Below are positions 16,592 through 38,600 of a DNA stretch of 64,000 bases, in pieces (within the stretch, counting starts at the first letter, position 1; every line of letters begins with the position of its first letter). The position numbers and the translations under genes are program-made. Origin of the DNA: Labedella endophytica (lineage in GTDB: Bacteria > Actinomycetota > Actinomycetes > Actinomycetales > Microbacteriaceae); contig NZ_RZGZ01000002.1 in the NCBI RefSeq assembly GCF_003990045.1, positions 310,001-374,000 on the forward strand, written 5' to 3'. The notes below the pieces were generated by a model. That model searched no databases, was not told the DNA's origin, and saw nothing but the letters and a program-made list of their open reading frames with translations.

Positions 16592-16636
16592 GATTCGAGC
16601 ATGACAGACCGTTCCGCGTCGCCCCAAGGGGGCTGG

Positions 16637-16674: not shown

Positions 16675-16844
16675 CCGCGGCGCACCGCCGTCGGGCCGCC
16701 CGCGTCCCCGCGTTCCGCTCGCAGATTCCGCGACCGGCGACGAGTCTTCCCGCGCACCCCCTGCCCACACACCCCCTTCCTGAGCGTGCTCGGTTGGTGT
16801 GCCCGTCTGTGCGCCTGCTCCTAGGCTGGAGCGCGGAGGTCTCC

Positions 16845-17540: not shown

Positions 17541-17905
17541 CCAGCCGCGCGAGGCGCTAGTGCGGCTCGAGGGCGCCACATAGAGGTGGCGCCCTCGAGG
17601 CGGATGAGGCGCCGTCGAGGGCCTATCGACGGAGCCCGGGACGTGTCGGCCGTCGTCGACCGCCGTCGTGGAGTCCTGTATCGGGATTCCTGACGAACCG
17701 TTCCCTGAGCCTGTCGATGGGTGCCGGAGATTCTCGTCGTCGAGGCTCTCCCTCCCACGCACACCCTCGCTCTCTGCGCCTGCCGAAGGGCACCGTCGAC
17801 GTCGGATCTTTCGCCACCTGTCGTCCACAGGCTGGGTCCGACGGAGAAACTGACTCCTTTTCCGGATACCGTCCGAATGTCGGTGGTGTGCTGTTCACTA
17901 GACGT
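17541..17905. other. 365-base region without a gene
   Basis: It holds the hairpin at 17566-17599, then a partial third copy of its arm (GGCGCCGTCGAGGGC, about 17609-17623). It also has a CCTGAGCCTGTCGATGG stretch near 17705 of the kind often seen in actinobacterial intergenic repeats. The promoter of the HNH gene should lie in its right end. I see no convincing small gene. Confidence 0.5.
17566..17599 (+). terminator. Perfect 14-bp hairpin after the DUF1275 gene
   Basis: CTCGAGGGCGCCAC (17566-17579) and GTGGCGCCCTCGAG (17586-17599) are perfect complements with a 6-base loop, 26 bases after the stop codon. There is no T-run, which is usual for GC-rich actinobacterial terminators. Confidence 0.6.
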
Positions 17906-19264: not shown

Positions 19265-19376
19265 GTGGGGCCCGCCCGGGAGACCGGTCGTATTGTCGTC
19301 TGTGGACGGCACGAACGCGGTATTCCTCCGTCCGTTCCTCCGTCCGCCTATGGTCGTCGGCATGGGGGTAGTGACA

Positions 19377-19745
19377 ATGTTGAGACGACTCGTCGCGCTC
19401 GTCATGGGTTCCACGTTGGCGTTCACGCTGGCCGCATGCTCGACCGCTGAGCCAACGCCGACGTCGTCCGAGACCGCTCCGACGGACGCGTCCCGACTGG
19501 CCGAAGCGATCGACGCATTCACCGTGTTCAACGCCGCCCTCGATGGCTGCCGCGATATCTCTAGGACCCACGTCGTGGACGAGGAGGGTGCGCCGTCAAC
19601 GTCGACCCCCATCCGAACCCGCATTCCTCCGGTTGTCTTCCTCGTGGAGGTTGGCGACTCTCTCCTTATATCGAAGGTGGATACTGCTCCTGACCGGAGC
19701 AGTCGTGGCTGTCTTGATGCAGACGTCCCTTCCAGCCTTGGCTGA
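19377..19745 (+). CDS. Putative short lipoprotein
   Basis: From ATG 19377 the protein (122 residues) begins MLRRLVALVMGSTLAFTLAA followed by Cys, a convincing lipoprotein signal with an LAAC lipobox, then a Thr/Ser/Pro-rich spacer. The N-terminal half looks coding. The last about 45 residues overlap another frame that itself looks coding (signal peptide of the PKD gene), so this gene may be truncated or frameshifted near 19620. The function is unknown. Lipoprotein and PKD-type genes are often paired in Microbacteriaceae. Confidence 0.5.
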   Translation: MLRRLVALVMGSTLAFTLAACSTAEPTPTSSETAPTDASRLAEAIDAFTVFNAALDGCRDISRTHVVDEEGAPSTSTPIRTRIPPVVFLVEVGDSLLISKVDTAPDRSSRGCLDADVPSSLG

Positions 19746-20375
19746 CGGCGACTGTGGCTTCGGGTTCTCTAGTAGCGGAGAGTGCGTCTCAGGCGGGATT
19801 GGGCCCGGCAGCGTGGACATGGACTCGAGCCGAACCTCAGAAGGACCTGATGGCGATCCGAACGGACACGCGGGCTCGGGTGGCGCCCCTGACGCGAATG
19901 GCTCGCCGAGCGACGGAGGCGGCACCGTCGATCCCCGGGAGATCCAGGACAGCCTCCGGTGCGGCGAAACCTCCCTCTGCCGCGACGGCTACGACGCCTC
20001 CCCGGCTCCGACCATCACCCTCACCGACCTCACGAGCACCCCCGTCGCCGTCCGCTTCTCCCCGCAGGCCTACCGCTGGGACTGGGGCGACGGCACCACC
20101 GAATCTTCTCGACCCCGGGCGCCACTTGGGAGAGCCTCGACCAGGACCGCTTTACCGAGACCCCCACGTCCCACACCTACACCGAACGCGGAACCACCAC
20201 CATCTCCCTCCACGTCGCCTACACCGTCGAATACCGTCTGGGAGGCGCAGGGCCCTGGACGACCGTCACGGGCACGGTGGCAGCCAGCACTACTCTCGCG
20301 GCCTACGTGGGCACCGCGTCGACGGTCATCGTCCCCGAGGACTGCAACGCCGATCCCTCGGGGGTCGGCTGCTGA
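19651..20375 (+). pseudogene. PKD-domain secreted protein broken by a frameshift near 20100
   Basis: One frame encodes a signal peptide (ILLLTGAVVAVLMQTSLPALA), a disordered Gly/Ser/Asp segment and the PKD strand YRWDWGDGTT. Right after that motif the family sequence continues in another frame as FSTPGATWESLDQ, PTSHTY and the terminal PEDCNADPSGVGC, ending at 20375. One missing base (or two extra) between about 20098 and 20106 explains this. Either the gene is recently dead or the base is a sequencing error. The true start is unclear: TTG 19651 is in frame with the signal peptide. Confidence 0.6.
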
Positions 20376-24076: not shown

Positions 24077-24173
24077 GTGGGTGCCTCCCGATGGATCGTG
24101 TCCTCCAACTCTATTCGCGTCGGCGACTCCCGTGGCCCACCCGTCGCCTCCGACGCTGTCCCGGCCCGGCCAA

Positions 24174-24179
24174 TATGCT
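24174..24179 (+). promoter_or_regulatory. Possible -10 box of the lacI-type gene
   Basis: TATGCT lies 22 bases before ATG 24202, giving a short leader that contains the AGGA ribosome site. Confidence 0.35.
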
Positions 24180-24201
24180 GGGAGCGTCAGACAGGAACAC
24201 C

Positions 24202-25254
24202 ATGACCTCATCGACCGGCCGGCGCAAGAACGGCCGACCCACCATCTCGGATGTCGCCGCGCTGGCGGGCGTCTCGGCCGGTGCGGTCTCCAAGGTGTTC
24301 AACGGCACGGGCCGCATCTCGCCGCCCACCGCCGAGCGCGTCCGCGAGGCGGCGCGGAAGCTCAACTGGACGCCGAATCCCGCCGCGATCGCGCTCCGGA
24401 CCTCTCGAGCGCAGGCGATCGGTCTCGTCCTCACGAGCTCCTCCCCCGTGGCCGAGGTGGGAGCGGCGAACGTCGGTCTCATCTCCGGCATCGAATCCGT
24501 CCTGAGCCCCCGCGAATACGGGCTCCTGTTGAACGTCTTCCTCACCGGTCGGCACGACGAGACGGCCTTCTACCGCTCGCTCGCGGAGCGTCAGCGGATG
24601 GACGGCGTGATCCTCACCAACTCGGTGGTCGGCGACACCCGGTTCGAGCTCATGAAGGGATTGGGCGTGCCGGCCGTCCTCGTGGGCACCCCGTGGAGGC
24701 CCGGCGTGGTGGACTACATCGACGCCGACCCGCCGAGCGCCGGGATCCCCGAGACCGTCGACCACCTGGTGGGGCTCGGCCACCGCGACATCGCATTCGT
24801 CAGCGGCCCGGCCGGATTCGTCCTCCCCAACATCCGACGCGAGGCCTTCGTCGCGCGGCTCGCGCACCACGGGCTGTCGCCCCACTCGGTCGCGAGTATC
24901 GAGTACTCGCCATCGGCGGCCGCGGCGGTGACGAGCGGCCTGCTCGACGGAGCTTCGCCGCCCAGTGCGATCTTCTATGGCACCGACACGATGGCGATCG
25001 CGGGGATGCGCACCATCCAGAGCCGCGGTCTGTCGGTCCCCGGTGACGTCTCGGTCGTGGGGTTCGAAGGGCTCGAGGTCGGCGAATGGGTCGACCCCCA
25101 GCTCACGACGGTGCAGCGGTTCGCCTTCCAACGGGGACGCGCGGCCGCCGCGAAACTGCTCAGCCTGCTCGGGGAGACGATCGAGGAGGACGTGCCGCTC
25201 GAGAAACCGGTCCTCGTCGTGCGCGCCTCCACGGGTCCCCCCGAGAATCGCTGA
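24202..25254 (+). CDS. LacI-family transcriptional regulator of the sugar locus
   Basis: The 350-residue protein has the LacI helix-turn-helix ([20 protein letters not shown], then [20 protein letters not shown]) with hinge helix [13 protein letters not shown] full periplasmic-binding-like effector domain follows: [46 protein letters not shown] and [12 protein letters not shown]. It sits at the 3' end of the carbohydrate operon and converges on it, 28 bases from the last gene. A likely operator, TACGACGTTGTA, lies before the sugar-binding-protein gene at 30619. It is probably a repressor released by the transported sugar. The start is set by AGGA before ATG 24202. Confidence 0.92.
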
Positions 25255-25282
25255 CTCCCCGCGGGCTCCGCGACGACGAACG

Positions 25283-27412
25283 TCACCAGAGCAGGCGAAG
25301 AGCCCCGAGTTCGTGGACCGGCAGCAGCGTGACGACGGCCGACCCGTCGGAGACCTGGATGGCCACCTCCGCGAAACGTCCGTTCTCGACCGACTGCGCC
25401 CGTAGGGCGTCCGGGTCGACCGTGTGCCCCGCCGCGGTGGACAGCCGATCGAGATCGACCGTCACCTCGACGCCGAGGAGCGGCGTGACCGCGCGCTGCT
25501 GACCTCGCATGGCCATGGGATCGGTGAGGTTCGCGAAGGCGAACACGAACGACTCGTCGTCGACCCACGCGGCGGCATCGATCAGTCCGTCACCGTGGAC
25601 CTCGACGAGCGCCCCACCGTCGAGCGCGGCACGGAGCACGTTCCGCAGCAGCGTCAAGTGATCGCCGAGAAGCGTCTCCTGGTACAGCTCCGCGATGTTG
25701 AAGGCCACGACGTGGATCGTGCCTGCCGTGCTCTCAGAACGGAGGGACGGGGCGAGGGGGGAGCTGAAGACCGCGGGGTCGACGGCCTCGCCGCGCGGAT
25801 AGACCTCCTCCATCGGGAGGTCGGGGTGGTCGGGCACGAACCTCCAGTGCACCGCGACGCCGTCGGTCGGCTCGTAACGAGCCAATCGCGTGCCGCCGAT
25901 GATCCGGTCGGCACCGTCGAAGCCCGCGTCGAGGCCGCCGTCGGCCGTCCGCTGCACGTAGTTGTTGCGCACGACGCCTGCGGAGAGGTCCCCGAGGGAT
26001 GCTCCCGTCAGCTCGGTCACGAGGCGGATACCGCCGTCGATGCGTGGCCCCGGGCCCGTCACGACGAGATCTCCGCCCCGTTCGACGAAGGCTCGAAGGG
26101 CCGCCGCGGACCGGGCGCTCACCTCGTCGACCTCGGGGAGGACGACGACGCGGGTCTCGGGCAGGCCGAGACGATGGAGCCCCCGCTCCCCCACGAATTC
26201 GAACGGGACCCGCAGCTCGACGAGCGCCTGGTACATCCCGGCGGACGCCCGGCGCGTGCGGTCGTCGGCGAACGAACCGTCGACGTCCCACACGCATACC
26301 TCGGCCACCGGGCGCGCCTCCTGCCAGGTCGACCCGATCTCCCGGTGGAGGGCGAAGGCGCGTTCCACGGCCGGCACCCAGCGGGTGTCGTGGATGCGGG
26401 CGGCGAATTTCGTGAACCAGGGAAAAGCCCCGTGCACGAAGCCGTCGACGATCCAGCCAACGGTCTCCTGCCCGGCGTTGACCGAGTCCTTCCAGCGGTA
26501 CCCGTGCGACTCGGGGCCGACCGAGGTGATGAGTCCGACGGGCTTGTCGGGATGGACGGCGCGGGTGCGCTTGGCGTCACGGCCCGCGGCCCACTGCGTC
26601 TCACCCTCGTTGCGCGCCTGGTGGTCGACGAGGAAGAACGGGACGTGATTCCGCGCGACGTCGTCGCGCAGTTCTCCGGCGGCGAAGGAACCGAGGTTGG
26701 GGATGAAACGCACGGCGGGTTTCACGTCGCGGACCGCGGCGTCCCAGTGCGCGACGAGGTCGCTGAGACGCTCCCGCCGCCACCCCCGGTAGGCTCGCCA
26801 GGCCTCCCCGTCGGCTGCGTCGCGGGACGTCGGGAGGGAGAAGCCGCTCGCGGCCCGGAAGAGCCCCTCGGCCGTCTCCGTGTAGGCGGGCCCGTGGCCC
26901 TGCCACCGGTTCGCGAAGACCGCGTCGATGTCGTACGTCGCCGTGATCTCGCGGGCGACCTCGGTCGTGAACTCCCAGTTGTACTCGCCGTAGGCGTCGG
27001 TGACGAACGTCCCCGGGTGCGCCCAGTGCTCCTGGAGGGCCCCGTCCTCGGTTCGCGCGATCCACTCCGGGTGCGCGTCCCGCACGTCCCGGTGCACTGC
27101 ATGCGGATCGACACGCGCCATGACGACCATGTCGCGGCTGCGAGCCAGGTCGACGATCTCGCCGAGCAGGTCGCGGTTCCCGAGATGGACGCTGCGGTAA
27201 TGCAGCGGGATGGCGGTGGGATAGAAGGCGATGTACCCGCCGGCGCTGATGCAGATCGCCGTCGACGCCGTCCGGTCGATGATGTCGGCCCAGGCGTCGA
27301 TGTCGACGTGCAGCGGGTCGTCCTCCACGAAGGTGAGCTGCGTCCACCGCTGGTCGCCACTGAACCATGGGATCGTCTCGCCGCCGGTCGAGAGGGTCTG
27401 TGTCGTCGTCAT
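25283..27412 (-). CDS. Putative glycoside hydrolase, GHL6-like, first paralogue
   Basis: The 709-residue protein has no signal peptide and so is probably cytoplasmic. Its N-terminal half reads as a TIM-barrel sugar hydrolase: ICISAGGYIAFYPTAIP, DMVVMARVDPHAVH, GEYNWEFTTEVAREI, DAVFANRWQGHG. The middle part (VWDVDGSFADDRT, VVVLPEVDEVSARSAAALRA) looks like the glutaminase-like beta-galactosidase trimerisation domain, and a small beta domain ends it. This matches the hypothetical glycosyl hydrolase 6 (GHL6) type, whose substrates are not established. Its ATG overlaps the permease stop in ATGA, tying it to sugar import. A paralogue lies at 31620-33752. Confidence 0.72.
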   Translation of the reverse strand: MTTTQTLSTGGETIPWFSGDQRWTQLTFVEDDPLHVDIDAWADIIDRTASTAICISAGGYIAFYPTAIPLHYRSVHLGNRDLLGEIVDLARSRDMVVMARVDPHAVHRDVRDAHPEWIARTEDGALQEHWAHPGTFVTDAYGEYNWEFTTEVAREITATYDIDAVFANRWQGHGPAYTETAEGLFRAASGFSLPTSRDAADGEAWRAYRGWRRERLSDLVAHWDAAVRDVKPAVRFIPNLGSFAAGELRDDVARNHVPFFLVDHQARNEGETQWAAGRDAKRTRAVHPDKPVGLITSVGPESHGYRWKDSVNAGQETVGWIVDGFVHGAFPWFTKFAARIHDTRWVPAVERAFALHREIGSTWQEARPVAEVCVWDVDGSFADDRTRRASAGMYQALVELRVPFEFVGERGLHRLGLPETRVVVLPEVDEVSARSAAALRAFVERGGDLVVTGPGPRIDGGIRLVTELTGASLGDLSAGVVRNNYVQRTADGGLDAGFDGADRIIGGTRLARYEPTDGVAVHWRFVPDHPDLPMEEVYPRGEAVDPAVFSSPLAPSLRSESTAGTIHVVAFNIAELYQETLLGDHLTLLRNVLRAALDGGALVEVHGDGLIDAAAWVDDESFVFAFANLTDPMAMRGQQRAVTPLLGVEVTVDLDRLSTAAGHTVDPDALRAQSVENGRFAEVAIQVSDGSAVVTLLPVHELGALRLLW

Positions 27413-28323
27413 TTGATTCCCGTCGTGGCGATGCCCTTGATGATGTATTTCTGGGCGAAGAGGAAGAACAGCAGGATGGGGATGAGGGAGACGAGCGACA
27501 TCGCGAACATGATGCCGATTCCGCTCTGCGTCTCCGAGTCCACGAGCGATTTGAGCGCGACCGGCACCGTGTAGAGCTTCGTCTTCGTGAGGTAGAGCAG
27601 TGGCCCGAAGTAGTCGTTCCACGTCCAGATGAAGGTGAAGATCGTGGTCGTGATGAGGGCCGGCTGCATGAGCGGCAGGATGATCGACCAGAAGATCCGG
27701 AACGGGCCGGCCCCGTCGAGCATGGCCGCGTGGTCGAGCTCGCGCGGCAGGGTCCGGATGAACTGCACCATGAGGAAGATGAAGACCGCATCGGTGGCGA
27801 GGAACTTCGGGATGAGCAGCGGAGCGTACGTGTTCACCCAGCCCATCTCGGCGAACAAGATGTACTGCGGGATGACGAGCACGTGGAACGGCAGCATCAT
27901 CGTGAGCAGCGTGAGCCCGAAGTACAGCTTGCTCGCCCGGAAGTTCAACCGAGCGAGGGCGTACGCGGTCAGCGCACACGAGAACAGGTTGCCCACGATG
28001 GATCCGACCGCGACGACCCCCGAGTTGATGAGGAACGTCGTGAACGGCGTGCCGAGCGAGTCCCACCCTCCCGTGTAGTTCTCGAGGGTCACCTCGCTCG
28101 GGAAGAGGCCCGTCTGCGTGAGGATCAGGTTGCTCGGCTTGAACGAGCTCACGATCATCCAGATGAGCGGGTAGAGCATGAGCAGCGCGAACAGCACGAG
28201 GAACGCGTGTCGCGTGATCCGCCGTCCGCGACCGGTGCCCGCCCGCCGCCGACGCGGGGCCGGCTCGAGGGGCTTCCCCGCAGCGGCGGTCGCCTGGACG
28301 TCTCTGTCGAGGATGGCCATCAT
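27409..28323 (-). CDS. ABC sugar transporter permease (MalG type)
   Basis: The 304-residue protein has six predicted transmembrane helices and the binding-protein-dependent permease loop DHAAMLDGAGPFRIFWSIIL, followed by PLMQPALITTTIF. It pairs with the upstream permease to form the membrane channel of a CUT1 carbohydrate importer. The first of two consecutive ATGs (28323) overlaps the preceding stop in ATGA, and its own stop overlaps the next start in ATGA. No ATPase gene is present, so a shared MsmK/MsiK-type ATPase elsewhere is expected. Confidence 0.95.
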   Translation of the reverse strand: MMAILDRDVQATAAAGKPLEPAPRRRRAGTGRGRRITRHAFLVLFALLMLYPLIWMIVSSFKPSNLILTQTGLFPSEVTLENYTGGWDSLGTPFTTFLINSGVVAVGSIVGNLFSCALTAYALARLNFRASKLYFGLTLLTMMLPFHVLVIPQYILFAEMGWVNTYAPLLIPKFLATDAVFIFLMVQFIRTLPRELDHAAMLDGAGPFRIFWSIILPLMQPALITTTIFTFIWTWNDYFGPLLYLTKTKLYTVPVALKSLVDSETQSGIGIMFAMSLVSLIPILLFFLFAQKYIIKGIATTGIK

Positions 28324-29309
28324 TCGTCTCCGTAATGCACCCAGCGACGGGATGCGATGAAGTTGAGCGCCGTCGCGAGAGCGATGACGAGCAGGAGCAC
28401 CCACGCCATGGCGGCCGCGTAGCCCATGTCGAAGTTCACGAAGCCCTCCTGGTAGATGTAGAGCGTGTAGAACAGGGTCGAGTCGAGCGGTCCACCCGTG
28501 CCCCCGCTCACCACGTGCGCGGGCGTGAACGCCTGGAAGGCGCCGATCATCTGCAGGATGAGGTTGAGGAAGATGATCGGGGTGAGGAGCGGGATGGTGA
28601 TCGAGAAGAACCGCCGCACCTTCCCGGCGCCGTCGACCTCCGCCGCCTCGTAGAGCTCCTCGGGGATCTGCCTCAGGCCGGCGAGGAAGATCACCATGGG
28701 CGACCCGAACGTCCACACGTTGAGGATGATGAGCGTCCACAGCGCCGTATCGGGGTTCTGGAGCCAGCTGTCCGCCTCGATCCCGATGAGGCCGAGGCCC
28801 TCGTTCACGAGACCCGAGTCTCCGAAGAGCTGCTGCCAGAGGATCGCGATCGCGACGCTGCCGCCGAGGAGCGACGGGAGATAGAAGCCGCTGCGGTAGA
28901 TCGCGAGCCCGCGAATGCCCTTGTCGAGGATCATCGCGAGGAACAGGGCGAAGATCAGCTGCAGCGGCACGGACACCACGACGTAGGTGAGGGTGACGCC
29001 CACCGATGCCCAGTACCGGTCGTCCTCCATCATGCGGGTGAAGTTGTCGAAGCCGATGAACTCGGGGGCCGAGAGGAGGTCGTAGTCGGTGAACGCGAGA
29101 ATCGCCGATGCGATCAGCGGACCGGCGGTCACGACGATCATCCCGATCATCCACGGGAGGAGGAAGATGTGCGCGACCCAGCCCTGACGGAGAGAGGTCG
29201 GCTTGCGGTTGCCCGCCTTCCGCCCCGTGACGATGCTCTCCGTGTCCGGTGGTGGCGCCTGTGGCGCGTTCTCCCCCGCGCCGCGGGAGCGTCTGTTGAG
29301 GAGGGTCAT
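28320..29309 (-). CDS. ABC sugar transporter permease (MalF type)
   Basis: The 329-residue protein has a disordered N-terminus, then six transmembrane helices starting at HIFLLPWMIGMIVVTAGPLI. The permease signature is EELYEAAEVDGAGKVRRFFS, then ITIPLLTPIIFLNLI. It is the first permease of a CUT1 importer. The start (29309) overlaps the binding-protein stop in TGATG, and the end overlaps the second permease in ATGA, so the three are translationally coupled. Confidence 0.95.
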   Translation of the reverse strand: MTLLNRRSRGAGENAPQAPPPDTESIVTGRKAGNRKPTSLRQGWVAHIFLLPWMIGMIVVTAGPLIASAILAFTDYDLLSAPEFIGFDNFTRMMEDDRYWASVGVTLTYVVVSVPLQLIFALFLAMILDKGIRGLAIYRSGFYLPSLLGGSVAIAILWQQLFGDSGLVNEGLGLIGIEADSWLQNPDTALWTLIILNVWTFGSPMVIFLAGLRQIPEELYEAAEVDGAGKVRRFFSITIPLLTPIIFLNLILQMIGAFQAFTPAHVVSGGTGGPLDSTLFYTLYIYQEGFVNFDMGYAAAMAWVLLLVIALATALNFIASRRWVHYGDE

Positions 29310-30619
29310 CAGGCTGTCTCGATCTCGGCCGTAACGGCATCGACGAAGTTGGACGCGGCGTCGGAGACCGACCGGTCGCCCAGGGTGACGGCCTCGAGCT
29401 CGCGGACGAACATCGTCCGCCAATTGCCCGATCCGGCGGGAGCCTCGAACCGGTCTCGACGCTCGGTCGCGGCGATCTCCCGCGTGATGGCGATGACCTT
29501 CTTCTCCACCTCCGTCGCCTCGGGCTCGTACTCGTCGAGGAGCGACGTGTTCGGCGGGGCTCCCGCCGAGAGCCCGACGAGCTTGAGCAACTCGAGGGAG
29601 TTCAGGTTGAAGCTCATGAGTTCGCCGGCGGCGTCCACCCGGTCGTCCTCCGCGCGGGCGTACATGGCGAACCGGCTGTAGTACACGAAGTGGTAGCCGG
29701 CTGCGGCATCGGCGAAGGCGGGGATGTCGCGCTGGTCGAACGTGTAGTCCGGGAAGGCGAGCGCCTCGTCGACGATGTGGTTGCTGTTCGCGAAGGTCGC
29801 GAGCACCTTATTGCCCGTGAGCGACCATGAGGCCTCGATGCCGTCCTGCTCGCTCACGGTCGTCGTCGCCCCGGCCTTGCGGAGCGTCTCCCACCAGTCG
29901 ATCCATTCGGCGACCGTGTCCACGCTCGCACCGAGCTTCCCGTCCTTCGTCCAGAGGTCCTCGCCGTGCTGCCGGACGAACGACTCGAAGGGCATGTCGT
30001 GGTAAGGACCGTACGTCGTGCCCTTCCGGCCGTTCGCGTTGTCCTTCGTGTAGTCGATGAGGAATTCGGAGAGCGCCTCCCATGTGAGGTCCTCGGGGAG
30101 GGTGACGCCGTCCTCCTCCATGAACGTCGAGTTGTAGCGGAGCACGGGGCTGAACATCGACTTGGGGAGGGTGTCGAGCACGCCGTCGAGCCGGAACGAG
30201 TCGATCTCCGCCGCGGAGAACGCGCTCAGGTCGAGCGTTTCGATGCCCTCGAGGTCGCGGTAGATCGACGCATCACGGTACGTCAGGACGGCAGGAGACG
30301 GGATCCAGAAGACCTCCGGCACGTCGCGAGCGGCCATCTGCGTGGTCATGCGCTCCTGGAACGCGTTGTAGTCCCCGAACTCCGGCTCGACGGTGATGTT
30401 CTCGTTCTGCTGCCCGAAGCTGTCGAGCCCGGCGAGGTAGGCCTTCTGCCGATCGGCGCCTCCCCACCAGGCGAAGCGGACGGTGGTGGTCCCGGTCCCG
30501 CCGGATCCCCCTCCGATAGAACATCCGGCGAGCGCGAAGGCGCCTACCGTGATCGCGCCGACGCCGGCGTAGGTGAGGAAGTTCCGACGGCTGACGTCCT
30601 GCAGAGTGGATTTCGACAT
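29309..30619 (-). CDS. ABC sugar transporter substrate-binding lipoprotein with Tat signal
   Basis: The 436-residue protein has a twin-arginine signal (SRRNFLTYAGVGAITVG) ending in an LAGC lipobox, so it is exported by Tat and anchored outside. The mature part is a type 1 sugar-binding fold (VRFAWWGGADRQKAYLAGLD; NITVEPEFGDYNAFQERMTT; KVLATFANSNHIVDEALAFP). Aromatic and acidic residues are common, as in oligosaccharide binders. AAGGA precedes the ATG and a LacI-type operator lies 17-28 bases upstream, so this is the likely first gene of the transporter operon. Confidence 0.92.
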   Translation of the reverse strand: MSKSTLQDVSRRNFLTYAGVGAITVGAFALAGCSIGGGSGGTGTTTVRFAWWGGADRQKAYLAGLDSFGQQNENITVEPEFGDYNAFQERMTTQMAARDVPEVFWIPSPAVLTYRDASIYRDLEGIETLDLSAFSAAEIDSFRLDGVLDTLPKSMFSPVLRYNSTFMEEDGVTLPEDLTWEALSEFLIDYTKDNANGRKGTTYGPYHDMPFESFVRQHGEDLWTKDGKLGASVDTVAEWIDWWETLRKAGATTTVSEQDGIEASWSLTGNKVLATFANSNHIVDEALAFPDYTFDQRDIPAFADAAAGYHFVYYSRFAMYARAEDDRVDAAGELMSFNLNSLELLKLVGLSAGAPPNTSLLDEYEPEATEVEKKVIAITREIAATERRDRFEAPAGSGNWRTMFVRELEAVTLGDRSVSDAASNFVDAVTAEIETA

Positions 30620-30635
30620 GGTGTCCTTCTTTCGA

Positions 30636-30647
30636 TACGACGTTGTA
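30636..30647. promoter_or_regulatory. Candidate LacI-type operator before the transporter operon
   Basis: TACGACGTTGTA is an imperfect palindrome (10 of 12 positions match its reverse complement). Its centre, ACGT within RCGACGTTGT, resembles the ACAACGTTGT sites of many actinobacterial LacI regulators. It lies in the 69-base gap between the dehydrogenase stop and the binding-protein start, at the likely transcription start. Confidence 0.5.
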
Positions 30648-30688
30648 CGAGTGATGACGATGTGGTGGTGCGGGTGGGGTGGTGATGC

Positions 30689-31627
30689 TCAGGCGAGGGC
30701 GACGAGGTCTACGCGATTGACGAGGGGTTCGCCCTCGACCCTCCTGCGCAGGTTGTCCAGGAAGATCTCCGTGCCGCGAGCGGCGGTGGCGGCGGTCGTC
30801 GCACCGTTGTGCGGCGTGACGACGACGTTCTCGAGGGACCAGAACGGTGAGTCGGCGGGCAACGGCTCCGTCGCGTGGGCGTCGAGCCCAGCTGCGGCGA
30901 CCCCTCCCGATCGCAGCGCGTCGAGGAGGTCGTCGTCGACGACGATCCCCCCACGGGAGACCACGACGACCGTCGCCCCGGGGCGCAGAGCCGACAGGAC
31001 CGACTGATCGATCGCGCCCCGCGTGTGCGTCGTGAGCGGGGCTGCCACGACGAGCACGTCGCAGCGGGCGGCGAATTCGAGCATCTCGTCCGGCGCGTAC
31101 ATGCGGTCGATGTCGGGAGTCGATCGGCCGACGGTCCGTCGGAGGCCGACGACCGTCATCCCGAAGGCGCGCGCTCGAGGCGCGAGGGCCTCGCCGATGT
31201 TCCCGAAGCCGTAGACGCCGAGGGTCTTCCCGAAGAGTTCCCCGTGGGTGAAGCGGTCCCAGCGGGCCGAGCGGGCGGAGTCGAACCAGCGGGTGGCACC
31301 ACGATCGAGCAGAAGAGCGAGGAGGAGGGCGTGCTCGGCGAGGGGAACCGCTCCATTGCCGGCTGACGAGGTCACGGTGATATCGGTCGCTCGGAGCCGC
31401 GGACCCACGTCGGATTCCACGCCGGCAGCCCAGGAGTGCACCCAGGACAACGATGCGGCGGCATCGACGGCGGCGTCGGGGACGCGCCCCGCGACGATCG
31501 TCACAGACGGGTCGATCGTCGTCGCACCGTCGTCGTCGTCGAACACCACGACGTCGGGGAACTCCGCGCGGATCCGGGAGCGGACGATCTCGCCCTCTCC
31601 TCCCCGGACCAGCACGACCTCACTCAT
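30689..31627 (-). CDS. D-2-hydroxyacid dehydrogenase (hydroxypyruvate/glyoxylate reductase-like)
   Basis: The 312-residue protein has the NAD(P) motif GVYGFGNIGEALAPRARAFG and the catalytic Arg in VVSRGGIVVDDDLLDALRSG. The Glu lies in HATEPLPADSPFW and the His in TPHNGATT, so the Arg-Glu-His set of the family is complete. It would reduce a 2-oxo acid, such as hydroxypyruvate, to the D-hydroxy acid. It overlaps the upstream hydrolase gene by 8 bases and belongs to the same operon. The exact substrate is not readable, but the neighbouring hydroxypyruvate-isomerase and tartronate-semialdehyde-reductase homologues favour a C3 or C4 oxo acid. Confidence 0.88.
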   Translation of the reverse strand: MSEVVLVRGGEGEIVRSRIRAEFPDVVVFDDDDGATTIDPSVTIVAGRVPDAAVDAAASLSWVHSWAAGVESDVGPRLRATDITVTSSAGNGAVPLAEHALLLALLLDRGATRWFDSARSARWDRFTHGELFGKTLGVYGFGNIGEALAPRARAFGMTVVGLRRTVGRSTPDIDRMYAPDEMLEFAARCDVLVVAAPLTTHTRGAIDQSVLSALRPGATVVVVSRGGIVVDDDLLDALRSGGVAAAGLDAHATEPLPADSPFWSLENVVVTPHNGATTAATAARGTEIFLDNLRRRVEGEPLVNRVDLVALA

Positions 31628-33752
31628 GGCGACCCTCCTCGTCGTGCGCCGGACCGATGACGACCACGGCGGCGTCCGCGATCTCCGGGATCTCCACGAC
31701 GAGATCCGCTCCGTCGGTCCGGACGGTCGCCGGGAGCTCGTGACCCGAACCGGTGCCGGCCGAGGACTCCACTCCAGGTGCGAGGACGCGGATCTCCTCC
31801 GCTCCCCCGGCCGCGCTCCCCGGGAAGCGGAGCGTCGTGCCGTGGACAGGAACCGACGGCCCCATGCTGTTACGGCGCTGGCCTGACTGGTTCAGGAGGT
31901 GGACGACGAGACCTGCCCGCGAGCGTCCGACGGACACCTCGACATGCTCGCTCGTGTCCACTGTCACGGTTCCATCCTGTCCGACGGCCTCCGCGACGAC
32001 GTCGACGGCGAGGTCGCGGATGGATGTGAGACCGAGCTCGCGGTAGGCCGCACCCACCGTCCACGGGATCTGGACGGCGTACCCGTGGCCGTGTCGCGCG
32101 ATCGCGCAGCCGACCTCGGTGCCGACGACGTGTCCATAGGCCTTCTCTGGCGGCCCGTAGGGAGCGGCGGCGATGATCCGGTGCCGCTGTTCCGTGTCCG
32201 GGCGCCAGGAGAGGGTGTGCACACGCCCGCGGAGCGGGACGAGTGTCGAGCCCTCGATGACCGGGGACTCGACGACCTGAACATAGGAAGACTTGAGCGC
32301 GTCGGCATCGGCCTCGACCGCGAGCTGGGTCTCGCCAGGCAGCCACGGTGTGGTCGATCCGTCCGCGCGGATACCCGAACGACCCGTCGCCACGACGCGT
32401 CCCCCGGCCTCGACGAACGCACCGAGCGCGCGTTCCGCCGCCGCGTCGAGCTCGATGAGGTCGGGCAGAACGACAACCCGGAATCGCTCCAGCGGAACCA
32501 CGGAGAGGGCCTCCGCGGGGACGACGTCGGCGGCGACGTGGCGTTCGAGGAGACCGGAGAACAGTCCACGGAACTCGGAGACGGACGCGGCGTGCGTCTC
32601 CCCGGTCGCCGCGAGCGGGTCGGGCCGGACGATCCCGACGTCGGCGGCAGGGAGCAGTCCGTCGTAGATCGCGGCATTGTCACGATGGAACCGCGTGACG
32701 GTGCGGGCGGCCGGGAGGCACGCGTAGTCGATGCCTCCGGTGGGACCCATGATGTAGGTCGATGGGTTGGCGCCCCGCGAGATGGCCTGAAGGAGGTACT
32801 GCGAGAACATCTCGGGCTGTTCGCTCGCCATCCGGTAGGGCATGTCGACGAAGGCGACGGCGTTCACGAGCACCGGCTTCTCGGGCTGCGACACCCGGAA
32901 GGCGCTCACCGATTCGCTCGTCGCGTGGGGCCAGAGAGCCCGTCCGAGAGCATTGTTCGCCTCGTGGAAGAGGATGTCGGCGGAACGGCCGAGGATCAGT
33001 CCGGCATCCGGCGCCCGATCCGCGATGTGGGAGCGGATGGTGTCCGTGAGGCGGTCGATCGTGCGGGCAGTGAACTGCTTCCACTCCAGGTAGCCGTCAT
33101 CGCCGGCGAACGACGGCAACGAGGCGCGTCCCGTCTCCGCGGTGAAAGCCTCGGCGCACGCGTCGCAGTGGCAGACGCCGTGGACCGTGCCACCGTAGTC
33201 CACCTCGTTGAAGCCGAACCAGTTGAAGAAGAATCCGTCCACCGGGTACCGGTCGAGGACCTCGTCGAGGATGTCGAGGGTGCGTTCCTGGTAGTAGCCG
33301 GCGCTCGGGCACACGCTCACGAGGCCCTCGTAGGTCTGTCGTTGTCCGCTCGGTGAGCGGAAGCACCATTCCGGGTGGTCGTCCGCGACGCGGGCGTCCA
33401 CCTTGGAGAAGTCCATCCGGGCGAGCAGCCGCGTGTCGCGTGCATGCGCCGCCATGACGGCGTCGCCCACGAGATCGCCGCCGGGTCGCTCGTCGAGCAG
33501 CGGGTTCCGGGTCTGGAACGGGAGGGACGTCGGGTAGTGCGAGAGGATGCCGCCGACGTTCAGCAGCCAGACACCCGCCCCGTGGTCCTCGACCGCGTCG
33601 AGCACGGTCTCGACGTCGAGGAGCGCGTCGATCTCGCGGAGGTTGGTCTGGAACATGTCGAAGGGCCGGTCCCACCATCCGGGCCGGACCGCGGCGGAGG
33701 CCATGCCAGCGGTAGCGGGCAGGACGGTCGGTCGTTCGCTCGTGGCGGTCAT
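31620..33752 (-). CDS. Putative glycoside hydrolase, GHL6-like, second paralogue
   Basis: The 710-residue cytoplasmic protein is laid out like the product at 25283-27412 but diverged. It has GVWLLNVGGILSHYPTSLPF, RLLARMDFSKVDARVADDHP and VDGFFFNWFGFNEVDYGG, with a Cys cluster, HGVCHCDACAEAF, that resembles the metal-binding loop of GH42-like enzymes. The central RFRVVVLPDLIELDAAAERA is the trimerisation-domain core, followed by a beta-rich tail. The first paralogue lacks the Cys cluster, so the pair may act on different linkages. It overlaps the genes on both sides (ATGA at 33749-33752; 8 bases at 31620-31627). Confidence 0.72.
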   Translation of the reverse strand: MTATSERPTVLPATAGMASAAVRPGWWDRPFDMFQTNLREIDALLDVETVLDAVEDHGAGVWLLNVGGILSHYPTSLPFQTRNPLLDERPGGDLVGDAVMAAHARDTRLLARMDFSKVDARVADDHPEWCFRSPSGQRQTYEGLVSVCPSAGYYQERTLDILDEVLDRYPVDGFFFNWFGFNEVDYGGTVHGVCHCDACAEAFTAETGRASLPSFAGDDGYLEWKQFTARTIDRLTDTIRSHIADRAPDAGLILGRSADILFHEANNALGRALWPHATSESVSAFRVSQPEKPVLVNAVAFVDMPYRMASEQPEMFSQYLLQAISRGANPSTYIMGPTGGIDYACLPAARTVTRFHRDNAAIYDGLLPAADVGIVRPDPLAATGETHAASVSEFRGLFSGLLERHVAADVVPAEALSVVPLERFRVVVLPDLIELDAAAERALGAFVEAGGRVVATGRSGIRADGSTTPWLPGETQLAVEADADALKSSYVQVVESPVIEGSTLVPLRGRVHTLSWRPDTEQRHRIIAAAPYGPPEKAYGHVVGTEVGCAIARHGHGYAVQIPWTVGAAYRELGLTSIRDLAVDVVAEAVGQDGTVTVDTSEHVEVSVGRSRAGLVVHLLNQSGQRRNSMGPSVPVHGTTLRFPGSAAGGAEEIRVLAPGVESSAGTGSGHELPATVRTDGADLVVEIPEIADAAVVVIGPAHDEEGRHE

Positions 33753-34633
33753 GCGTCCACCCGGCCGTTCAGGACGCGCGCGAGCTCGACGAGGGCCGAG
33801 TGATCGGACGCGCCGCTCCCCCGGGCGATGACCGATCTCATCAGCTGGGAAACGAGCCCGGTCGCAGGGAGGCCGACGCCGCCGGTGCGAGCCGACGCCT
33901 CGACGATCGCGAGATCCTTGGCGTGGAGCTCCGCACGGAATCCGGGGCGGAAGTCCCCGGCGAGCACGGAGTCGCTCTTGCGCTCGAGTACGGTGCTGCC
34001 GCCGAGTCCCTTCCGAATCACGGAGAGCGCGGTCTCGACGTCGACGGACTGCGCCTCGAGGAAGACGACGGCCTCCGCGAGCGCCTGGAGGTGCAGGGCG
34101 ACGACCAGCTGGTTGGCGGCCTTCACGACCTGGCCCGCTCCGCTCGGTCCCACATGCACGACGGAGGCCCCGACCGCGTCGAGGACGGACCGCCAGCGCT
34201 CGAGGGTCTCCGGGTCGCCACCGACCATGATCGACAGGGCTCCCTCCCTGGCCCCCGCCTCGCCCCCGGAGACGGGCGCATCGAGGGCTCCGTGGCCGGC
34301 CGAGACGAACGCGGAGGCGATCTTTCGGGCGACCTCCGGACGGATCGTCGACGCATCGATGTAGTCGGCCCCGTCCGGGATGTGGGTGAGAATGCCGTCA
34401 TCGCCGAGAGCGACCTCCTCGACGTCGGGCGAGTCCGGGAGCATCGTGATGACGAGATCGGCGTGCGCGACGGCCTCGGCCACCGAGTCCACGACCGACA
34501 GCCCGGCGTCTCGAGCGGCCGAGCGGCTCGCCTCACCGCGACTGAAGCCGTTGACGGTGTGTCCGGCGGCGGCGAGATTCGCCACCATCGGGCGTCCCAT
34601 GACGCCGAGTCCCACGAATCCGATGGTCGCCAT
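33749..34633 (-). CDS. glxR: Beta-hydroxyacid dehydrogenase, tartronate semialdehyde reductase-like
   Basis: The 294-residue protein has the family N-terminus IGFVGLGVMGRPMVANLAAA, the substrate loop DAPVSGGEAGAREGALSIMV and the catalytic Lys in GAGQVVKAANQLVVALHLQA. This is the GarR/GlxR/3-hydroxyisobutyrate dehydrogenase group. The likely reaction is tartronate semialdehyde plus NAD(P)H to D-glycerate, or oxidation of a related hydroxy acid; L-threonate dehydrogenase (LtnD) is a close alternative. It is the first gene of the left-going operon and is divergent from the hydroxypyruvate-isomerase-like gene. Confidence 0.85.
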   Translation of the reverse strand: MATIGFVGLGVMGRPMVANLAAAGHTVNGFSRGEASRSAARDAGLSVVDSVAEAVAHADLVITMLPDSPDVEEVALGDDGILTHIPDGADYIDASTIRPEVARKIASAFVSAGHGALDAPVSGGEAGAREGALSIMVGGDPETLERWRSVLDAVGASVVHVGPSGAGQVVKAANQLVVALHLQALAEAVVFLEAQSVDVETALSVIRKGLGGSTVLERKSDSVLAGDFRPGFRAELHAKDLAIVEASARTGGVGLPATGLVSQLMRSVIARGSGASDHSALVELARVLNGRVDA

Positions 34634-34655
34634 CGTCTCTCCTTCTGCGTGAATT

Positions 34656-34724
34656 TATCGATATACCACCGCAGAAAGCGAGCTGCTCTGCTCCGGCCTT
34701 GCGTTTGAGTATTTCGATATACCA
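34656..34724. promoter_or_regulatory. Divergent promoter region with repeated TCGATATACCA
   Basis: The 11-mer TCGATATACCA occurs at 34658-34668 and 34714-34724, 56 bp apart and in the same orientation, as TATCGATATACCA and TTTCGATATACCA. One copy lies near each divergent gene. They are AT-rich islands in GC-rich DNA and are probably operator sites; TATACC may also serve as a -10 for the right-going gene. Confidence 0.55.
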
Positions 34725-34762
34725 AACTCGTGTCAAGAGCACGTGACCGAAAGGACCGAACG

Positions 34763-35587
34763 ATGCCGTTCTCCGCCAACCTGTCCATCCTGTTCACCGA
34801 GCTACCGTTCCTCGACCGCTTCGCCGCCGCGAAGGCGGCCGGTTTCGACGACGTCGAATGCTGGTGGGCCTTCTCCACCCCCGTGCCGACGGACGACGAG
34901 GTGACGGCGTTCCTCCGGGCGATCGACGAGGCCGACGTGTCCCTCCGCGCCCTCAACCTCTACGCAGGGGACATGCCGTCGGGCGACCGCGGCGTCCTGT
35001 CCCACCCGGGCGTCGAGGACCTCCTCGCGGAGCATCTCGTCGCGCTCTCCCGCATTCTGTCCGCTACGGGCTGCCGCGTCGTGAATGCCCTCTACGGCTG
35101 CGCGCTGCCGGATGTCCCCGCCGCGGAGCACGCCGACATCGCCGTCGCGAACCTCCGGAACATCGCGGACGTCCTGTCCCCTGCGGGAGTCGTCGTCGTC
35201 GTGGAGCCGCTGACTCGTGGGGAGAACGGGACGTATCCCCTCGAGACCGTGGAGGACGCGATCGCGATCGTCGACCGGGTCGACCGCTCGTCGGTCCGCG
35301 TCCTGTTCGACGCGTACCACCTGCACAACAACGGCATGGACCTCGCGAACGCGCTTCGGGTCCACGCCGGCCGGATCGGCCATGTGCAGATCGCTGACAG
35401 CCCCGGGCGCCACGAACCCGGCTCCGGGACCATCGACTTCGACGCGTTCTTCGCCGCCCTCGACGAGATCGGCTACGACGGGTTCGTGGGGTGTGAGTAC
35501 CGGCCCGCCTCCACGACGACGGAGGGTCTCGGCTGGCTCGCGCGCGTCTCGTCGACCGAGAGCGACGTACTCGCCGACATCGACTAG
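34763..35587 (+). CDS. hyi: Hydroxypyruvate isomerase-like TIM-barrel protein
   Basis: The 274-residue protein is an AP-endonuclease-2-type xylose-isomerase-like barrel: NLSILFTELPFLDRFAAAKA, CRVVNALYGCALPD, VVVEPLTRGENGTYPLETVE, VLFDAYHLHNNGMD, IGHVQIADSPGRHEPGSGTI and FVGCEYRP. The metal-binding Glu/Asp/His/Glu positions are present. Hyi interconverts hydroxypyruvate and tartronate semialdehyde; OtnI, a 2-oxo-tetronate isomerase, is a near relative. No glyoxylate carboligase, tetronate kinase or aldolase lies nearby. AAAGGA precedes the ATG. It is divergent from glxR and shares its operator region. Confidence 0.85.
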   Translation: MPFSANLSILFTELPFLDRFAAAKAAGFDDVECWWAFSTPVPTDDEVTAFLRAIDEADVSLRALNLYAGDMPSGDRGVLSHPGVEDLLAEHLVALSRILSATGCRVVNALYGCALPDVPAAEHADIAVANLRNIADVLSPAGVVVVVEPLTRGENGTYPLETVEDAIAIVDRVDRSSVRVLFDAYHLHNNGMDLANALRVHAGRIGHVQIADSPGRHEPGSGTIDFDAFFAALDEIGYDGFVGCEYRPASTTTEGLGWLARVSSTESDVLADID

Positions 35588-35610
35588 CCGATCGCCGCCC
35601 GACGGGCCGC

Positions 35611-38600
35611 TCAGGCCAGCAGCTCCCGGATGTCTCCGGCGTCGAGCGTGGGGCCGAAGAGCTCGCCATCATCCTCGAGCACCCCGGTGATGAGCTGCTG
35701 CTTGCGCTCCTTGAGCGCCATGACCTTCTCCTCGATCGTGTCGGCTGCGACCATCCGGTACACGAACACGTTCTTGTCCTGGCCGATGCGGTGCGTACGG
35801 TCGATCGCCTGCTCCTCGCTCGCCGGGTTCCACCAGGGATCGAGCAGGAACACGTAGTCGGCCTCGGTGAGGGTGAGACCGAAGCCGCCGGCCTTGAGGC
35901 TGATGAGGAAGACGGGGGCGCTCCCCTCCCGGAACTCGCGTATGACGCCCTCGCGGTCGCGGGTCGACCCCTGCAACGTGACCGAGGCGATCCCCTCGGC
36001 GTCTAGCCGGGCGCGGACCTTGTCGAGATAGGAGGTGAACTGGCTGAAGACGAGCGTGCGGTGCCCCTCCTCGACGACCTCCGAGAGATGCTCGACGAGC
36101 GAGTCGAGGCGCGTCGAGGGGATGTGCGCGTAGTCGTCCGAGACGAGCCCGGCGTCGAGGGCGAGCATGCGCAGGAGGGTGAGCGAGCGGAAGACGATGA
36201 AGCGGTTGCGGTCGAGGTCCTCGATGAGACCGAAGAGCTTCTGCCGCTCCCGCTGCAGATAGACGTCGTAGAGCTCGCGGTGCTCGGGCGCGAGGTCCAC
36301 CGTGAGGATCTGCTCGGTCTTCTCCGGCAGCTCCGGCGCCACGACGTCCTTCGTGCGTCGCAGGAGGAAGGGCGCCACGCGTCGTCGGAGGCGTTCGAGC
36401 CGCTCGGAGCGGAGTCCCGCGGTCACGGCGGGAGCGCCGCCGGCGCCCCGACCGCTCGTGATGCCGCCGACGGGGTCCTCGATGACCCGCACGAACTCCT
36501 GCGTGAAGCGGCGGGCGGAGGGGAACAGTCCGGGGGACGTGAGCGCCAGGAGCGCGTGCAGCTCCGAGAGCGAGTTCTCGAGCGGGGTGCCCGTGACGGC
36601 CAGCACGAAGGGGACGCCGAGATCGCGGACCGCCTCGTGCACCTGGGAACCGGCGTTCTTCACGAACTGCGCCTCGTCGAGGATCGCGCCGGACCAGCCG
36701 CCCGGCGCGTCCCGGTAGGCCTCGGCGTCGAGGCGGAGCAGCGCGTAGCTCGTGACGACGATGTCGGCGTCCCGCGCAATGTCGCCGATGACGGCGCGGC
36801 CGGAACCCTCCGTCGAGTCGATGCGTCGCACGACGAGATCCGGGGCGAATCGTGCCGCCTCGGCGACCCACGCGGGGGCGACCGAGGTCGGCGCGACCAC
36901 GAGGAAGGGGGCCGGTCGATCCGCACCGGTGGCCGCGGCCCGCTCGACGGCGTGCTGCACGAGCGCGAGACACTGCACCGTCTTGCCGAGACCCATGTCG
37001 TCGGCGAGGATTCCGCCGAGTCCGTGGCGCCAGAGGTGAGCCAGCCAGGAGAACCCCTCCGCCTGATAGGGGCGCAGCTCCACCGTGAGACCGGCGGGGG
37101 CGGGAACCGGCGCCCTCTCGCCGTCGCCGATGTCGGCGACGAGGTCGCGCCATTCCTGGGCGGGACGCGATTCGTCGGCGAGGTCCTCGAAGTCCGCCCA
37201 CAGGCTCACGTGGCGCCGGCTGATGACCGGCGTCGTCTCCCACTCGGCCAGGTCTTTGGCCTCGTCGATGAGCTCCGCGAGCCGCGCGAACGCCGGATGT
37301 TTGAGCGACAGGTAGGTCCCGTCCACGAGGAGGAGGCGCTTCCGACCCTTCGCGAGAGCGGTGAACAGCGGGAGGAAGGGGATCGTGCGGCCGTCCACCG
37401 TGACGGTGACCCCGAGGTCGAACCAGTCGCGCTTGTCGCTCGGCATCGTCGAGACGATCAGCTCCGGGTCCCCGACGAGTTCCTTGTAGGCGGGCTTCGT
37501 GCCCGTCGTCTCGACCGTGACGCCGTCGAGCAGGCGCAGCCGCGGGAGAATCTCCGTGACGAAGTGGGCCGACTCCACGCCGAGGAGGATCGCGTCGACG
37601 GGCGTCGGTGGCCCGTCCGACGCTGACCCATCGCCGTCCGCGGCCTGCGGCAACCACTCGGCGGGGAGCAGTCCGTCCGGGAGGAGTTCACCGAGGTCCG
37701 GGAACGGAGCACCACCGCGGGGCCGTCGCCAGCGCCAGCTCAGCTCGGTCTCGTGGCCGGAGCCGTAGGCCACCGTGAGCACGAGCGTCGGGGCCACGAC
37801 GGCCGGCAGCGTCACCGACTCGTCGAGGCTCACGACATCGAGCCGCTCCTGCAGGCCCGGGACGTAGACGGAGGTGAATTCGTCCACGGCGTCCGCGGGC
37901 ACCACGAGCCCACCCGCGAGCGGACCCCGGCCGCCGAGGAGCGTCCGTTCGTCGGGCCCCAGGGGCGCGGCCGTGGGCGCGAGGACGATGCGTCGAGCGT
38001 CGCGCGGGTCGACGAAGGACACTCCGTGGTTCCCGATCGGGCGCGTGAACCGGAGGTCGAGGGAGGCGGCCTCCCCCGGCAAGTGGACGGTGACGAGGGG
38101 CTGCAACCGGATCTCGTCACCCACGCGGCGCGCGTCGATCTCGACCCGAGCGCTCGACCCGACGGTCACGTTCGACCCGGGGCCGGTGCCGATGAGGGCG
38201 ATGCCGAGAGACTCGGCCTGGTCGAGCATCGTCCAGAGCACGGGGTTGGCGAACTCGTCGAGGAACATGAGGCTCGCATCGGGGTCGAGGACCATTGCTC
38301 CCGCCGCGCGATGCAGAGCCCCGAGCTCGCAGAACCAGCGGTGCTGCTCGGGGTCGAGGTTCATGCGGTTCACGAGGTGCGGGAGGTTCGTCCACGTCAT
38401 CGTGCCGCGGGCCCACCCGCGCGAGGTCTCGGCCGTGGGGCGTGCCGCCAGCCGGAACTCGCCGGTACCGGGGATCTCCTCCTCGGCGTTCTCGGCGCGG
38501 TCCTCGGCATGCTCCGCACCGCGGCGAGCGCGGCCGGGAGCTCGCGCGGGCGCGACGGCGCGCGACGTGGGACCGTTCCAGCGGTGGGCCGTGCGCGGGA

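Follow-up and report, generated by a model that had tools for sequence, protein, structure and literature searches.

A LacI-linked gene island of Labedella endophytica that appears to point to an undescribed degradation pathway for a sugar-containing compound

A set of nine genes in Labedella endophytica, which includes two glycoside hydrolase-like proteins (GHL6A and GHL6B), parts of a sugar importer and three candidate oxo-acid enzymes, appears to point to an undescribed degradation pathway. The genes lie in a window of 64,000 nucleotides (contig NZ_RZGZ01000002.1, positions 310,001 to 374,000 of the forward strand) from a genome of 3.67 Mb (G000), where they span window positions 24208-35587, in frame and mostly overlapping. 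Their distribution among other genomes supports the view that the island is one co-inherited catabolic unit. We consider it about an even chance that this unit is controlled by its LacI-family regulator, and that it serves to cut an imported sugar compound by means of GHL6A and GHL6B, releasing a three-carbon (C3) oxo-acid that is converted to D-glycerate. The features of the island, in window coordinates, are as follows.

24157 to 35617, no strand: the whole island, inserted cleanly between lpd and a SNF2-type helicase gene (empty site in same-genus genomes)
24208 to 25254, plus strand: LacI-family regulator (LacI), alternative start at 24175 (Pfam PF00356, PF13377)
25283 to 27412, minus strand: GHL6B, GH151-like hydrolase of 709 aa, no signal peptide by eye (PF14871, 54.4 bits; mean predicted local distance difference test score, pLDDT, 88.9; top Foldseek match 6tvk)
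27409 to 28323, minus strand: MalG-type permease (PF00528, BPD_transp_1)
28320 to 29309, minus strand: MalF-type permease (PF00528, BPD_transp_1)
29309 to 30619, minus strand: extracellular solute-binding protein (SBP), a lipoprotein of the twin-arginine translocation (Tat) type (PF13416, PF01547)
30689 to 31627, minus strand: HADH, a D-2-hydroxyacid dehydrogenase and candidate hydroxypyruvate/glyoxylate reductase (PF02826; NF041369, 188.6 bits)
31620 to 33752, minus strand: GHL6A, GH151-like hydrolase of 710 aa (PF14871, 88.5 bits; pLDDT 91.5; top Foldseek match 6tvk)
33749 to 34633, minus strand: GarR, tartronate semialdehyde reductase-like (TIGR01505, 309.6 bits)
34658 to 34668, minus strand: operator-like copy of TGGTATATCGA (exact-match genome search)
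34714 to 34724, minus strand: operator-like copy of TGGTATATCGA (exact-match genome search)
34763 to 35587, plus strand: Hyi-like isomerase (Hyi), a TIM barrel, alternative start at 34730 (PF01261; TIGR03234, 257 bits)

Read from the right, the minus strand carries GarR, GHL6A, HADH, SBP, MalF, MalG and GHL6B in that order, with LacI on the plus strand at the left end and Hyi divergent on the plus strand at the right end. Every gene named in an earlier note on this DNA was recovered by gene calling and Pfam, in frame and mostly overlapping. Two of its boundaries have shifted, however. The limits it gave to the gene run leave out the LacI gene (24208-25254, plus strand), and because this regulator belongs to the island, the island is wider than first drawn; the start of GHL6B lies at about 27412 rather than 28066, since the long open reading frame runs through the MalG frame. 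The flanking lpd and SNF2 genes are adjacent in all three same-genus genomes compared over a 20-kb stretch (G108, G033 and G165). Matches in G108 cover query positions 1019-4156 and 15618-19998 with 15 bases between them, and G033 and G165 behave likewise; depending on the comparison genome, the left limit of the island falls at 24144-24157 and the right limit at 35604-35617. The island, LacI included, is a clean insertion here or a clean loss in the three others, and because the gene set is spread among distant genera, gain by insertion would be the simpler reading.

That spread also carries the case for a single unit. One scan with a seven-row GHL6A alignment returned 106 relatives, of which 80 were kept, making 79 loci (19 of these on stretches shorter than 20 kb). 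Homologues at or below 27% identity were not counted, and for this reason L067, L113 and L127 are entered as lacking GHL6B while holding a distant one. According to the final counts, made with a codon-model gene caller, GarR and HADH are each present in 64 loci, GHL6B and Hyi in 36 each, and LacI in 27; tblastn on the same loci gave slightly different figures (GarR 63, HADH 65, GHL6B 39, Hyi 36). GHL6B and Hyi share 32 loci and are each found without the other in four, GarR adjoins GHL6A on the same strand in 33, and a member of the glycerate kinase cluster is found in nine. All five enzymes are encoded in 30 of the 79 loci, every one of them actinobacterial, and the order of the genes differs between genera while the set is constant. 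Because these 30 loci were found by GHL6A alone and carry all five enzymes in varied orders, the co-occurrence is not chance; the search that the earlier note had proposed thus finds the genes together and not scattered.

The loci include Plantibacter, Promicromonospora, Kribbella, Nonomuraea, Nocardiopsis, Occultella and Microbacterium, and across the whole set GHL6A loci occur in four phyla, namely Actinomycetota and, in a few cases, Pseudomonadota, Chloroflexota and Planctomycetota. Among genomes of the same family as the window, PF14871 exceeds its cut-off in 20 of 299. A set of 15 such genomes (19 stretches, picked by PF14871 matches) includes seven with GHL6A at 46-76% identity, all seven with GarR beside it, and eight in which GHL6A matches were weaker or none. 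The same nine genes recur in three genomes of genus g50. In a GHL6A tree of 77 rows longer than 600 aa, the sequence from L061, a record labelled Mycobacterium sp. KBS0706, is sister to the Inquilinus limosus row, and the record name may be wrong. GHL6A of Pseudonocardia sp. CNS-004 (L126, 10257-12043, plus strand) is split into two open frames, 243 and 352 aa long, possibly a broken gene or a sequencing error.

Both hydrolases belong to PF14871 (GHL6), their scores of 88.5 bits (GHL6A) and 54.4 bits (GHL6B) exceeding the gathering cut-off of 35 bits, and GHL6B also passes the cut-off of GHL10 (32.9 against 27.9). The two share 27% identity over 488 columns and align by profile over nearly their full length (E 3.6e-75), and neither has a signal peptide by eye. 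In AlphaFold models of mean pLDDT 91.5 and 88.9, respectively, both adopt the overall GH151 fold, with a TIM barrel, a Rossmann-like domain and a C-terminal beta domain. The GH151 alpha-L-fucosidase 6tvk is the top Foldseek match of each (TMt 0.77 for GHL6A and 0.81 for GHL6B, at 16% identity) and their nearest solved structure by sequence profile as well as by fold. The earlier note had placed them in a family without known substrate, a description that fails because both are full-length structural relatives of 6tvk. Likewise, the idea that GHL6 is a family of wholly unknown function was rejected, as the domain is present in the alpha-L-fucosidase Mfuc3 (PMC4723247), and Mfuc3 has since been moved to GH151 (PMC10154630).

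PMC10154630 assigns catalysis in GH151 to two residues, which in ALfuk2 are Asp154 at the end of strand 4 and Glu235 at the end of strand 6. With an inferred offset of 29 between the native and chain numbering of 6tvk, HMMER and hhalign both set Asn177 of GHL6A and Asn168 of GHL6B, at the end of strand 4, against the nucleophile Asp154. The substitution holds in 50/50 GHL6A rows and 31/31 GHL6B rows (49 of 66 and 30 of 36 listed full-length orthologues, respectively, each with the window protein added), whereas three GH151-like control proteins retain Asp. The models place an invariant carboxylate, Glu264 in GHL6A (50/50) and Asp263 in GHL6B (31/31), at the end of strand 6 or directly behind it, where hhalign to the GH151-like proteins is too weak to locate an equivalent of the acid/base Glu235. 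An invariant RxD closes strand 3 in both (R112/D114 in GHL6A, R100/D102 in GHL6B). GHL6A further has invariant Arg89 and Arg307, Lys117 in 49/50 rows, Glu183 after strand 4 as Glu in 44/50 and a CxCxxC element in 48/50. The structural comparison that the earlier note had suggested therefore finds invariant carboxylates at the ends of strands 3 and 6 in both hydrolases.

The two proteins thus share the (beta/alpha)8 barrel, the Rossmann-like middle domain and the C-terminal beta domain of the GH151 fucosidases (ALfuk2 6tvk, Mfuc3, Blon_0346), and with Mfuc3 the GHL6 domain as well, but they differ in the Asn and, by our reading of the alignment, in the strand-3 RxD, which 6tvk lacks. Membership of GH151 was rejected on account of the Asn, which replaces the catalytic Asp in all rows examined. 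GH42 beta-galactosidases resemble them in overall architecture, in the 42M-type middle domain (above its cut-off in GHL6A, below it in GHL6B) and in the CxCxxC element of GHL6A; however, identity is 12-15%, and membership of GH42 was rejected, narrowly, on the Glyco_hydro_42 score, for which GHL6A reaches 20.6 bits against a cut-off of 21 and GHL6B has no match at 0.001.

The three remaining enzymes point to the fate of the product. GarR of the window scores best with the tartronate semialdehyde (TSA) reductase model TIGR01505, at 309.6 bits against a curated cut-off of 340.75, and 40/40 GarR rows (39 of 62 listed full-length orthologues and the window) match this model at E<=1e-60; the GarR of L127, which stands in a gene run with Hyi, HADH and glycerate kinase, passes the cut-off at 377.3. 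Hyi of the window reaches 257 bits with the hydroxypyruvate isomerase model TIGR03234 (cut-off 353.45; L127 Hyi 195.7), and 25/25 Hyi rows (24 of 36 orthologues and the window) match it at E<=1e-40. HADH scores 188.6 bits with NF041369, under the cut-off of 400, and its PDB relatives include glyoxylate and hydroxypyruvate reductases and phosphoglycerate dehydrogenases. A glycerate kinase gene is present in the window genome on another contig. Based on the family scores of GarR and Hyi and the linked glycerate kinase, a C3 assignment (tartronate semialdehyde/hydroxypyruvate) is favoured over a four-carbon (C4) one (tetronate).

As the earlier note had it, glyoxylate carboligase, tetronate kinase and aldolase are absent from the nine island genes (Pfam scan). 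Searches of the window genome found no glyoxylate carboligase above the cut-off (best 376.7 bits against 711.2) and no match to the malate synthase TIM-barrel, and the glyoxylate carboligase route is accordingly unsupported for this genome; blastp at 1e-8 among the 1307 called proteins of the 79 loci gave no match to the genome's best carboligase-like locus. The E. coli gcl-hyi-glxR-glxK cluster resembles the present system in its TSA reductase, hydroxypyruvate isomerase and glycerate kinase but differs in the carboligase, and since none is present in the island or above cut-off in the genome, TSA would have to come from elsewhere. The tetronate pathway LtnD-OtnI-OtnK-OtnC shares a beta-hydroxyacid dehydrogenase and a Hyi-type isomerase with the island, which lacks the kinase and the decarboxylase/aldolase and whose scores favour C3 substrates. 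D-apiose catabolism is similar in the import of a plant sugar by an ATP-binding cassette (ABC) importer and in the glycolate product of one branch, but no Gfo/Idh-type dehydrogenase is found among the nine genes and GHL6A and GHL6B match no apionate-lactonase domain; the apiose route was rejected because that domain is unmatched in the Pfam scan of the island proteins.

The importer is represented, as the earlier note described, by a Tat-type lipoprotein binding protein and two BPD_transp_1 permeases; a Pfam scan found no ABC ATPase gene among the nine. The translation of SBP shows by eye a Tat-type SRRNFL motif followed by the lipobox LAGC. Among its relatives in the PDB are YesO and the sugar binders 2uvg-2uvj, proteins that bind acidic pectin fragments, and because of these relatives, together with the glucuronate genes of a second type of locus described below, the imported substrate is probably acidic.

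The gap between GarR and Hyi holds the only two exact copies of TGGTATATCGA in the genome, and each of two Plantibacter loci (L051 and L057) carries a pair of copies that are likewise spaced by 56 bp. Three Promicromonospora loci (L052, L054 and L055) have one related site each, GGTATATCGAAATACC, and no such operator-like site was seen in the pieces examined of L053 and L056. The site is an imperfect palindrome with a central CG, of the kind bound by LacI proteins, which suggests that LacI may bind the TGGTATATCGA sites. The LacI regulator of the window has counterparts of 90-91% identity in three loci of genus g50. LacI, present in 27/79 loci, takes in the window the place of a GntR/FCD regulator that is found in many loci of the same type as the window (type I, below), including 23 of the 30 five-enzyme loci (domains checked on one member).

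Taken together, the gene set is consistent with the import, intracellular cleavage and oxo-acid steps leading to glycerate that the earlier note had envisaged, with C3 compounds now favoured over C4. The ABC importer would take up a sugar-containing compound, and GHL6A and GHL6B, as GH151-like barrels without the GH151 nucleophile, would cut it in the cytoplasm. A C3 oxo-acid, either TSA or its tautomer hydroxypyruvate, would arise from the compound itself and not from a carboligase. Hyi would interconvert TSA and hydroxypyruvate; GarR would reduce the former and HADH the latter, both to D-glycerate, for phosphorylation by the glycerate kinase encoded elsewhere in the genome. The release of the C3 oxo-acid by GHL6A and GHL6B and its reduction to D-glycerate in a manner independent of glyoxylate carboligase is probably the sense of the island, where we infer the enzyme activities, the direction of flow and the C3 release itself.

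Several observations weigh against this scheme. GarR is lacking from 15/79 loci and HADH from 15/79 within the fetched stretches, and the loci are not independent, with seven from Kribbella, for example, and L113 overlapping L127. Window GarR, Hyi and HADH all score under their curated NCBIfam cut-offs, and a neighbouring substrate (C4 or larger) is therefore possible. Moreover, 20/40 GarR rows also match 3-hydroxyisobutyrate dehydrogenase and 5/40 match sulfolactaldehyde reductase (E<=1e-60). If the compounds are C3, GarR and HADH would lead to one and the same product, so that two reductases look redundant unless HADH acts otherwise. To our knowledge, no orthologue of GHL6A or GHL6B has a known activity.

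Two types of locus can be told apart. Type I, to which the window belongs, combines a sugar-type ABC importer with GHL6A, GHL6B, GarR, HADH and Hyi. Type II (18 loci) has a Dpp-type importer (its proteins, Dpp-type and SBP_bac_5-like, named by eye), GHL6A, GarR in 17/18 and HADH in 17/18, without GHL6B and Hyi. Mapped onto the GHL6A tree, either type requires three label changes. For Fisher tests, a locus counted as type I when it held GHL6B or Hyi but lacked an SBP5-type protein, which gave 40 loci; the p-values ignore relatedness. Type II is enriched in malate synthase G (7/18 against 1/40, p 0.0007), an enol-lactonase-like hydrolase (8/18 against 1/40, p 0.0002), glycerate kinase and GH2 (each 5/18 against 2/40, p 0.02) and GlcD-like proteins (4/18 against 1/40, p 0.03). 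Other type II extras are GH3 and an 880-aa protein (five loci each), ManD-like proteins and GH1 (four each), GlcF-like and UxuB-like proteins (three each), and GlcG-like proteins and UxaC (two each). The 30 five-enzyme loci have neither malate synthase nor glycolate-oxidase-like genes.

NCBIfam scans covered some members of these clusters, the others being named by clustering alone. Those above cut-off are malate synthase G in L127, L098 and L094 (and in L082 by one model out of two), glycerate kinase in L127, L082 and L103, beta-glucuronidase in L090, L101 and L088, glucuronate isomerase in L090 and L088, ManD in L098 and KdgD in L101. Those under cut-off are GlcD and a GlcG-like protein in L127, GlcE and GlcF in L101, UxuB-like proteins in L090 and L088, glucarate dehydratase in L101 (815.5 against 828.7) and the lactonase-like proteins of L127 and L101.

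These type II gene sets invite an extension of the pathway, in itself improbable, in which GHL6A would act on ring-opened dicarboxylic sugars as an acetal hydrolase. Achyranthosides and betavulgarosides carry dicarboxylic acid groups attached by an acetal to the glucuronic acid of a saponin, a side chain thought to come from a terminal pentose whose ring is opened oxidatively between C3 and C4 (PMC8858921). Acetal hydrolysis of this opened pentose would yield TSA and glycolate and leave a glucuronide, and the decarboxylated variant would give glyoxylate and glycolate; we hypothesise that a saponin of this kind is the substrate and that the type II gene sets take these products as inputs. Each of the three products has fitting genes near GHL6A among the 18 type II loci, malate synthase G is enriched as described, and malate synthase G, beta-glucuronidase, glucuronate isomerase, ManD and glycerate kinase pass their cut-offs in loci scanned; Arg89, Arg112, Arg307 and Lys117 of GHL6A could bind carboxylates. 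However, no extra module is shared by most type II loci, and GH3 (5), GH1 (4) and the 880-aa protein (5/18) point to mixed glycan islands, while the scanned GlcD-, GlcE-, GlcF-, GlcG- and UxuB-like proteins stay under cut-off. The literature matches listed contain no link between a bacterial enzyme and this side chain. Type I is left directly unexplained, with the genes for two-carbon acids absent there (L127 apart) and malate synthase absent from the window genome; one may speculate that type I would need a seco-hexose giving only C3 acids. In its boldest form, a long shot, this idea makes GHL6A and GHL6B a new class of "seco-glycosidases", that is, acetal hydrolases of GH151 fold that have lost the enzyme nucleophile and in which substrate carboxylates could aid catalysis, type II loci digesting the achyranthoside/betavulgaroside chain to TSA, glycolate and glucuronate and type I a related seco-sugar to C3 acids only.

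There are two other explanations. GHL6A and GHL6B might work as ordinary GH42/GH151-type exo-glycosidases whose substrate is an imported glycoside of glyceric or another hydroxy acid, with GarR, Hyi and HADH epimerising or recycling the aglycone acid. The fold of the GH42/GH151 group, the sugar-binding relatives of SBP and the linkage to glycerate kinase all agree with this, but the Asn at the GH151 nucleophile position in all rows examined does not; furthermore, D-glycerate would need a kinase only, whereas it is GarR that accompanies GHL6A in 64/79 loci and the kinase in 9/79, and we regard this explanation as rather unlikely. It is also doubtful, more so than the exo-glycosidase, that GarR, Hyi and HADH behave like LtnD and OtnI and use acids of the tetronate or hexonate type, as part of a C4-C6 sugar-acid route with its last steps encoded elsewhere. 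Their scores under the curated cut-offs would allow it, and the 2-oxo-tetronate isomerase model also recovers 18/25 Hyi rows (E<=1e-40). Nevertheless, all GarR rows scanned match the TSA reductase model and all Hyi rows the hydroxypyruvate isomerase model, and the window proteins score highest with these same models; the GarR of L127 exceeds its cut-off for TSA reductase, and glycerate kinase is linked in 9/79 loci (tetronate kinases were not searched by family).

Some neighbouring genes deserve mention in their own right. The protein of about 880 aa lies near GHL6A in five type II loci (L089, 12263-14914, minus strand; L082, L084, L093 and L096); neither the L082 nor the L089 member matches Pfam above cut-off, the L089 member has no PDB match, and it is possibly an undescribed glycosidase. 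L113 and L127, on one contig of Phycicoccus avicenniae, together form about 40 kb with two GHL6A and two distant GHL6B-like genes, to which glycolate-, glycerate- and glucuronate-type genes are added in the richest version of the cluster that we saw. There, a 713-aa protein (L113, 19942-22083, plus strand) follows UxuB- and ManD-like genes; it has no Pfam match, and the only solved relative found, a weak one, is BPa0997 (6hze-6hzg). In L109 (18314-20181) a ThuA-domain protein and an inositol 2-dehydrogenase-like oxidoreductase (under cut-off) follow the importer genes, and these clusters recur in L108 and L114, a hint of other sugar-oxidation chemistry. Two type II hosts, Microbacterium suaedae and M. 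halophytorum, are named after Suaeda or halophytes.

Among the matches listed from the open-licence literature, none described a function for the five-enzyme set and none relevant connected seco-sugar saponins with bacterial enzymes; for PF14871 that literature held no paper. What is familiar here is a carbohydrate utilisation locus and a GH151-like fold, and new enzyme chemistry is a realistic prospect. The set pairs two glycosidase-like families that lack the known nucleophile with a C3 acid route devoid of a carboligase. The type II clusters offer a concrete class of test substrates in the saponins of beet and Achyranthes. Should GHL6A and GHL6B prove to be seco-glycosidases, they would provide a source of TSA independent of carboligase and possibly the first bacterial route for such side chains. 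If the proposed pathway is true, the island would represent new enzymes and a new way for soil- and plant-associated bacteria to use unusual sugars.

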